A model generated the notes under the pieces. That model was not told the DNA's origin. It did no database searches and saw only the letters and a program-made list of their open reading frames with translations. A DNA stretch of 64,000 nucleotides from NCBI RefSeq assembly GCF_037975245.1, contig NC_092562.1, forward strand, positions 22,869,554 to 22,933,553, given 5' to 3'. A program made the translations under genes and the position numbers. Source of the stretch: Apostichopus japonicus (Eukaryota > Echinodermata > Holothuroidea > Aspidochirotida > Stichopodidae). Each line of letters starts with the position of its first letter. Within the stretch, counting starts at the first letter, position 1. This document shows, one piece after another, positions 29,401 to 32,400 of the stretch.

Positions 29401-32400
29401 CTTCTTGTACTTAATAAGTATGAAGTGCATCAAAGTATGAAGTGCAGTATGAAGTGCATCCAAGTTGGACTTATTCTTATGACAATGTCTGCAGACTGAC
29501 CTTTGATGACCTCCGACCACAAAAAGACATGACAGTGTTGTTGTACTTGACCCACATATGAGGTATGGAGTTTTTGTGTTTTACAAGGTTTTCAGACTTT
29601 GACCTAGGTTGGCCACATGATAATATACAATAAAAGTCTACCATCATATGAACAGAAATTAATATTTTAAAAGATTAAAACAAGAGAATGAATAACATAT
29701 CATAATGGTTACCTGAGCATGATGAGGAGAGCAATGAACATAGAGCAGAGTGGATCCACAATCATCCAACCAAACATCTGCATCAAAATGGCCGACACTA
29801 TCACCCCCACACTGCCAAGAGTGTCAGCAAGAATGTGCAAAAATACACCTGCAGCAGAATGAGGAAGAAAGTAGAACAATATTACTGATGTTACACTTAA
29901 ACATACAGAAATACACCTACAGCAGAATGGGAAAGAACATAGCAGCAACATTAATGATGTTACACTTAAACATACAGAAATACACCTGCAGCGAACGAGC
30001 AAACACATAGTAGCAACATTACTGATGTTACACTTAAACATATAGAAATACACCTGCAGCGAATGAGTAAGAATTATAGTAGCAAAATTACTGATGTTAC
30101 ACTTAAACAAACAGAAATACACCTACAGCAGAATGGGAAAGAACATAACAGCAACATTAATGATGTTACACTTAAACACACAGAAATACACCTACAGCAG
30201 CATGGGCAAGAACATAGTAGCAACATTACTGATGTTACACTTAAACATACAGAAATACACCTACAGCAGTATGGGCAAGAACATAGTAATAACATTACTG
30301 ATGTTACACTTAAACATACAGAAATACACTACAGCAGCATGGGCAAGAACATAGTAGCAACATTACTGATGTTACACTTAAACATACAGAAATACACCTA
30401 CAGCAGTATGGGCAAGAACATAGTAGCAACATTAATGATGTTACACTTAAACATACAGAAATACACTACAGCAGCATGGGCAAGAACATAGTAGCAACAT
30501 TACTGATGTTACACTTAAACATACAGAAATACACCTACAGCAGTATGGGCAAGAACATAGTAGCAACATTACTGATGTTACACTTAAACATACAGAAATA
30601 CACCTACAGCAGTATGGGCAAGAACATAGTAATAACATTACTGATGTTACACTTAAACATACAGAAATACACTACAGCAGCATGGGCAAGAACATAGTAG
30701 CAACATTACTGATGTTACACTTAAACATACAGAAATACACCTACAGCAGTATGGGCAAGAACATAGTAGCAACATTACTGATGTTACACTTAAACATACA
30801 GAAATACACCTACAGCAGTATGGGCAAGAACATAGTAGCAACATTAATGATGTTACACTTAAACACACAGAAATACACCTACAGCAGCATGGGCAAGAAC
30901 ATAGTAGCACCATTAATGTTACACTTAAATATACAGAAGTAAAACATAGTAACAACAACAACATTACTGATATGTTACCTTTAAACATACAGATGTACAA
31001 GTAAGGGAAGATATGAATGAAATACCATCAACAACATTACTGATGTTACATTCAATCATACAGAAATATAAGTAAAACATAGTAACAATAACATTACTGA
31101 CATGTTACACTTAAACATACAGATATAGAAGTAAAACATACTAACAATAATAATACTGATATGAAACATGCAGAATACAAGTAAGGGAAGATATGAATGA
31201 AATAACATCAACTCTTTGATGATGATATTTGAGGTTGTTCAGGAATAAACCAATACAGATATTTTGTTCAAATATGTTCACTTGCTGTTGAATTATTATT
31301 ATTATTGCAATACAGAAAGTAGAAAGCATCAGATTTCTGCTGGTTGCTTTGAAAAGGGGGTGGTGCAAGAATATAGGTTCTTCTACTGTGCTGTTCAACA
31401 GTAATTACAAGTTTGAGAGTTTTAAGCCAAGTTATGTACAAGATTACTTTACCCATCATTTACTTTATTTGATAGGATTTTTGCACCGATCTAAAATAGT
31501 ACTCTGCTAGCTCAAGAACAAAGTATCTATACCAAGAAACTTCTGTTGTAAATGTTGGCAAAACATGGTCTACATCCCGTTACTATGATCCAATTTACAC
31601 TTTCAGTATATTTTGGTTTGTTACCATTGTTTAGACTATTTTAGTTTGGAAAACTGTGGTATTTTTACCCATAAATGATCTCCTTCCGAAAATCTTTCGA
31701 GGGACCAAGACAGACCATTTCAAAGAACCAGAGGATGAATTCATATTTATGTTACATAGGATTTAAGATAATATTTAACCGGCAATTCTTCACAGGGCCT
31801 GTACATAACATACTAAGGTACTGTATTAACCATTGCGTTGGCTATACAGTAGCTGTTTGATTTCCACCCCATTTCTTTAACACCACACTTCATCGTTTCT
31901 AACTTCCATTAACCCCTGGTCCTGTACAATTTCAGTTACCATTCTTAGCCATCTGTTACATTGACAGGTACTTCACAGGAGTAGCCAGCCACCTCATCTA
32001 AACCGAACAATCTACGAACCTTGTAAAATTTGAGTTTCAGAAGAAGAAGGGGTGTGATGGTGCTCTTCATCCTCGTCCTTGCTTCCCAGCCCCAGACCGT
32101 GGGAGTGGCCGTGACCGGAATGGCCGTGACCGTGACTGGGGGCAGGTTGCGAGTGACTGTGTCCACCTCCGTGAGAATGACCGTGACCTACCCCGCCATT
32201 AGAAGCTGAAGAGAACAAATCAAATTTACTCATAAATGACTAAAATATAAATAAAAAAAAAATCAATTTTATTACTCTACTAAATGCCTTTGAGTCACTT
32301 CATTAAATTGACTGTTCAAGCTTCCTTTTCAGGTAATTGAACAAAATTCAAACTTTTCCGAAATTTAGACTAAAGGAATGCAGGCACTTTATGGAATGCC

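Follow-up and report, generated by a model that had tools for sequence, protein, structure and literature searches.

How does the spliceosome find the first base of an exon that is preceded by many near-identical copies of its own acceptor, and how does such a series of copies arise? Both questions are raised by the SLC30A7 gene of Apostichopus japonicus, which encodes a zinc transporter (ZnT7) and carries a minisatellite directly upstream of and reaching into exon 7.

Gene Structure and Genomic Context

The window, that is, the whole stretch of 64,000 nucleotides analyzed here, contains genes for AP1M-like (–), DPH5-like (+), SLC30A7 (–), NAD kinase (+), and MAP3K1-like (–) proteins, in this order, between positions 1712 and 56370. 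The labels are based on searches with human queries and on Pfam; the kinase piece scores just below the Pfam cut-off, and the DPH5 piece is without a Pfam match. We take the NAD kinase gene to be NADK2-like, and DPH5 and SLC30A7 are neighbors in the human genome, too. GC content amounts to 30–40% per 2-kb step, and the whole window gave no Rfam match at the gathering threshold and no tRNA. A 167-bp unit is duplicated in tandem (two copies, 98%) at 11240–11571, and the DPH5-like start codon follows after ∼190 bp. A 119-bp unit (2.1 copies, 99%) is repeated at 51415–51659 on the minus strand, in an intron, with a MAP3K1-like exon ∼90 bp downstream. A 177-amino acid open reading frame (59702–60235, minus strand) encodes the tail of a reverse transcriptase, which we assume to be LINE-like; a scan of a collection of genome contigs with this reading frame yielded 36 pattern matches, none of which was confirmed as a relative.

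SLC30A7 is located on the minus strand and consists of ten exons, with the ATG at 36701 and the stop codon ending at 26449. Joining the exons gives an intact frame of 372 amino acids with GT-AG at all nine introns, and residues 1–371 match the zinc transporter 7 chain 8j7t (E = 4.6e-154), which we take to be the human protein. Exon 7 begins with base 29848, behind the acceptor trinucleotide CAG, and its start is conserved coding sequence that is near-identical in the 8j7t chain. Intron 6 comprises 2171 bp. The initial annotation had called the donor upstream of it (GTTCGT) weak, and AAG/GTTCGT indeed shows the third lowest score among 27 donors. Another array, consisting of six 27-bp units (28494–28657, minus strand), ends 35 bp upstream of exon 8, where it abuts the pyrimidine tract without crossing the boundary.

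Anatomy of the Acceptor Array

Tandem Repeats Finder (TRF) detected the array at 29841–30938 with a period of 69 bp, 16.0 copies, 92% matches, and a score of 1802. Together with a pattern search, this result bears out the earlier description of a minisatellite built from the splice acceptor of exon 7. The number of decoys, previously estimated at about 16, is 15, since the last of the 16 tandem units is the real site at 29848. This unit is the only boundary copy that runs on into coding sequence, as had been proposed. The coordinates of all features are given in Table 1.

Table 1. Features of the SLC30A7 acceptor array and of the second boundary array (positions refer to the window)
Feature	Position	Strand	Basis
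SLC30A7 exon 6	32020..32205	–	donor AAG/GTTCGT starts at 32019
SLC30A7 exon 7, 136 nt	29713..29848	–	tblastn, intact spliced frame, 8j7t match
Unit of ∼69 bp × 16, each ending in acceptor plus exon 7 start	29841..30938	–	TRF, pattern search, unit comparison
Decoys, exon-like first base 29916, 29985, 30053, 30122, 30191, 30260, 30328, 30397	29849..30878	–	pattern search, acceptor scoring
Further decoys, 30465, 30534, 30603, 30671, 30740, 30809, 30878	29849..30878	–	pattern search, acceptor scoring
Older units of this repeat, diverged and lacking the acceptor part	30939..31205	–	TRF, unit comparison, 13-base slide
Donor-type boundary array, 84 bp × 3, end of AP1M-like exon	6522..6768	–	TRF, tblastn, donor scores

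On the minus strand, the array contains the motif AG/GTGTATTT 13 times, namely at 12 decoys and at the true site. The other three decoys (30671, 30465, and 30328) have lost one G and read TAG/TGTATTT. Accordingly, each unit holds the first eight bases of exon 7, or seven in the three deleted copies. The trinucleotide preceding the exon-like bases is TAG in 13 of the 15 decoys and CAG in two (30053 and 29985). Farther out, the older units lacking an acceptor that had been reported previously were found at about 30939–31205. A 30-bp core of the repeat, searched with up to seven substitutions, occurs 17 times in the window, always on the minus strand and within 29700–31300. Because no copy of the core lies elsewhere in the window, an origin from a dispersed repeat or transposon was rejected. 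The plus strand of the array (29970–31004) is open over long stretches, with reading frames of up to 173 amino acids, which are likely a by-product of the 69-bp period (23 codons).

Origin of the Repeat Unit

We compared the decoy consensus GTGTATTTCTGTATGTTTAAG with exon 7 and found eight of eight matches at positions 1–8, followed by six of 13 at positions 9–21. Base 9 is a C in all 15 decoys and a T in exon 7. A first comparison of this switch with the older units used units picked for motifs starting with C, and it was therefore repeated without picking by sliding positions 9–21 along intron 6 outside the array. At least ten of the 13 bases match at four of 1068 places, all four within 30992–31173 and all with a C at base 9. 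The same slide over the other eight introns reached this level at one of 6859 places. Since positions 9–21 follow the intronic repeat, including the C at base 9, each unit contains eight exonic bases and not 11 as stated in the initial annotation; the CTG that follows fits the older intronic repeat. For the same reason, and with exon 7 matching at six of 13 positions only, a longer capture of ∼21 exon bases that later decayed was rejected.

In the older unit at 31063, the stretch TATATTTCTGTATG (31070–31057) has TATTT-TG in common with the exon start and resembles the proposed capture junction. Based on these observations, we propose that the starting state was a repeat in the intron upstream of exon 7, its units being about 55–70 bp long. 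Misaligned exchange or slippage at TATTT[C/T]TG would have joined this repeat to the acceptor and the first eight bases of the exon, and the composite 69-bp unit would then have been multiplied by further unequal exchange. Because conserved coding sequence lies on the exon side, the captured bases probably come from the exon and not from the repeat. The previous suggestion that an intronic repeat captured the exon boundary and was then amplified is thus supported by the switch at base 9 and by the older units.

An identity matrix of the 16 units revealed several identical ones (30671, 30465, and 30328; 30740 and 30534; 30603 and 30260). The copy touching the exon is 74–86% like the other 15 units; in this matrix, the units with the one-base deletion were shifted by one base against the others, which lowers their percentages. 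Identical inner units and a diverged exon copy show turnover with an excluded edge. The identical units recur at a spacing of 137–343 bp, which could also be expected if the copy number were inflated or the array misassembled, and one aberrantly assembled array of a comparable type is reported in the amphioxus globin paper (PMC3087553). Such an artefact is nevertheless very improbable, as the units vary among themselves, carry private variants, and diverge at the edge, and the second array described below, like the older units, fits a biological process.

Comparison with Known Boundary Repeats

The globin paper (PMC3087553) describes "mirages" of amphioxus, minisatellites that span exon–intron boundaries and carry AG/GT signals. 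In Adh3, BflGb6, and BflGb9, as in SLC30A7, tandem units span the boundary, be it on the acceptor or the donor side. One copy enters the exon, many hold AG/GT, and the middle is homogenized while the edges are not; for BflGb6, the edge units are reported to escape homogenization (PMC3087553). Three corresponding structural features were found in SLC30A7: the tandem unit holds the end of intron 6 plus the first eight bases of exon 7, only the edge copy at 29848 enters the exon, the decoys read AG/GT in 12 cases and AG/TG in three, and the identity matrix of the 16 units indicates concerted evolution inside the cluster with the edges excluded. The unit of ∼69 bp compares with 10 to 160 bp for the published mirage units, and the 16 units compare with six and three in two BflGb6 haplotypes (PMC3087553). 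By its architecture, the SLC30A7 array seems to be a large member of the amphioxus kind. Mirages are further marked by a length that is unstable between haplotypes or tissues and by their occurrence in a cephalochordate. Unlike the amphioxus mirages, it shows a traceable older intronic repeat within the unit and a visible switch point, and it is represented by one sequence only.

Related cases are known from other genes. As described in PMC3902484, the 60-bp and 108-bp repeats of lancelet PGBD5 are likewise imperfect tandem repeats overlapping splice sites. Their copy number differs between assemblies (two or seven, and three or six); in comparison with SLC30A7, there are fewer copies, and the repeat is partly annotated as exon. 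A minisatellite also multiplies splice sites in human IFI6 (6-16), where these are donors and two repeat units are reported to be used (PMC4526556, in its passage on Turri 1995), whereas the copies in SLC30A7 are candidate acceptors. Recently duplicated genes in human segmental duplications share with SLC30A7 the expansion of minisatellites at exon–intron boundaries, and there such repeats are reported to be able to give rise to new introns and, through these, to alternative splicing (PMC2812944); the array described here was read from DNA.

No printed description of the SLC30A7 array was found among the matches listed from the open-licence literature, a body of papers that leaves most subscription journals outside, and a search of these papers for SLC30A7 together with minisatellite gave none. 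The array is unusually long among the published examples found; the kind itself has already been described.

Decoys and the Real Acceptor

To score the sites, acceptor and donor matrices were derived from four genes of the window whose annotation rests on homology and GT-AG boundaries, and which provided 27 acceptors and 26, later 27, donors. Both acceptor matrices rest on 26 sites, the true site being left out. In the model with a pooled pyrimidine tract, the true site is the best of the 16 with a score of 13.17. The four nearest decoys score 10.2–11.6 and are above the median of the 27 genuine acceptors (9.05), and the other 11 decoys reach 5.1–8.0. Among 522 other AGs in SLC30A7, 0.4–6.9% attain the scores of the decoys in this model. 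With the unpooled matrix, the true site scores 5.15, the CAG decoys 30053 and 29985 score 10.16 and 12.82, and the TAG decoys 30122 and 29916 are marginally above the true site at 5.19; the remaining eleven range from –1.24 to 1.69. The two matrices differ in that only the pooled one ranks the true site first. Since their scores lie in the range of genuine sites, the decoys are credible acceptors. A silent array had previously been linked to decoy scores far below that of the true site; scoring every unit, we found that this does not apply to the four nearest decoys. Context separates the true site more clearly than score does: the true site alone leads into the exon body, with a donor 136 nt away, and the decoys are without such a context.

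If joined to exon 6, each of the 15 decoys runs into a stop, in agreement with the initial annotation. The peptide given there, V-F-L-Y-V-stop, is valid for part of them only: 12 decoys read (G)V-F-L, a variable fourth residue (Y in nine, C in two, F in one), and V-stop, which makes six residues, and the other three read 22 residues before the stop. Use of a decoy would create an exon of 204 to 1166 nt, counted up to the exon 7 donor, or of 204–341 nt for the nearby decoys.

These properties would allow some transcripts to be spliced upstream, gain a stop, and be degraded, so that the length of the array would tune ZnT7 expression. Besides the invariable stop, this explanation can draw on decoy scores in the genuine range (four above the median in the pooled model), on the four decoys whose unpooled scores exceed that of the true site (in two cases only marginally), on the weak exon 6 donor, and on the altered splicing reported for boundary repeats in human paralogs (PMC2812944) and for IFI6. 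We nevertheless consider it unlikely. The true site is the best one in the pooled model and the closest to the exon 7 donor, and the authors of the amphioxus studies suggest that regular splicing is undisturbed, both for the globin and Adh3 mirages (PMC3087553) and, citing Adh and TnC, for the PGBD5 repeats (PMC3902484).

A further explanation arises from the first bases of exon 7. Because the exon begins with GTGTAT, splicing exon 6 to any AG/GT copy would recreate a donor, AAG/GTGTAT, which could be respliced stepwise until exon 7 is reached. The copies would then act as recursive splice sites, rescuing the poison products, and the intron would tolerate or even exploit many equivalent acceptors in a recursive ladder of variable length. 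In line with this idea, 12 of the 15 decoys present an acceptor directly followed by a donor, and the rebuilt exon 6 donor scores 5.3 compared with 3.89 for the native one (5.67 and 4.26 with the earlier donor matrix). Scored as donors themselves, the AG/GTGTAT decoys reach 4.7 (TAG) or 7.1 (CAG), and three of the 15 decoys are without a GT. The recursive sites and RS-exons treated in PMC6224609 similarly combine an AG with a donor-like GT, such that joining rebuilds a donor; rebuilt donors do exist, and the exon junction complex represses them (PMC6224609). Recursive splicing is, however, described as a way of removing long introns, and intron 6, with its 2171 bp, is short; two-step splicing is a prediction here. 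Moreover, the GT is gone from three copies, and joining exon 6 to the real start of exon 7 would recreate an identical donor. The GTGTAT is given by the exon sequence, so no function is needed to account for it, which also counts against recursive use. Taken together, we regard such stepwise splicing as highly improbable.

A Second Boundary Array

A donor-type counterpart of the SLC30A7 acceptor array is located at the end of an AP1M-like exon, the label being based on tblastn with a human protein and on the Pfam family Adap_comp_sub. This array covers six bases of the exon, which ends with KLVQ, and its copies repeat GTCCAG before GTA[A/T]GG. The real donor at 6762 scores 9.8, and the copies at 6679 and 6595 score 8.5 and 9.8, respectively.

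We asked if arrays are placed at exon boundaries more often than by chance. From 29 TRF rows, ten distinct arrays were kept (period at least 25, score at least 100); seven of these fall within the four annotated gene spans, two of the seven across a boundary. Random placement gives 1.95 expected boundary arrays compared with two observed (P = 0.65), or 0.45 compared with two (P = 0.066) if at most 15 exon bases are allowed, in a test that left out the three arrays outside the spans, the row 31022–31159 (older units of the SLC30A7 repeat), which passes the two thresholds as well, and the unannotated NAD kinase gene. An enrichment at boundaries is thus not claimed, the placement being no commoner than random landing. 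With two of them in a 64-kb window, boundary arrays may be common in the genome, yet no more so than random landing would produce.

A Probable Passenger of Repeat Turnover

The explanation that we prefer, and consider probable, is that the SLC30A7 array is a boundary-spanning minisatellite, or mirage, which would have originated by exchange and amplification, mostly remains without effect on splicing, and is carried along as a passenger of repeat turnover. From what is established about splicing, the choice of an acceptor would be decided by exon definition. Exon definition would favor the copy touching the exon over the decoys, which have neither the exon 7 body nor a nearby donor behind them, and transcripts from a decoy would meet an early stop. 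The splicing machinery thus probably tolerates the array as a whole instead of using it. Several points count against a passenger: the four nearest decoys score above the genuine median, four decoys score above the true site in the unpooled matrix (two of them marginally), the native donor is weak, the exons starting at nearby decoys would not be absurdly long (204–341 nt), and boundary repeats are reported to affect splicing in human segmental duplications and to be used in IFI6. Judged by the amphioxus precedent, the functional consequences proposed in the initial annotation, namely cryptic exons, nonsense-mediated decay, and expression varying with array length, nevertheless appear less likely than a silent passenger.

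The mechanism that starts mirage arrays is called unclear in the globin paper (PMC3087553). The switch point in SLC30A7 is readable, with eight exonic bases joined to a pre-existing intronic repeat, and it points to a way in which such arrays may begin. In addition, an array in which one real site stands among near-identical acceptors represents a natural test of how the spliceosome picks the copy that borders the exon.
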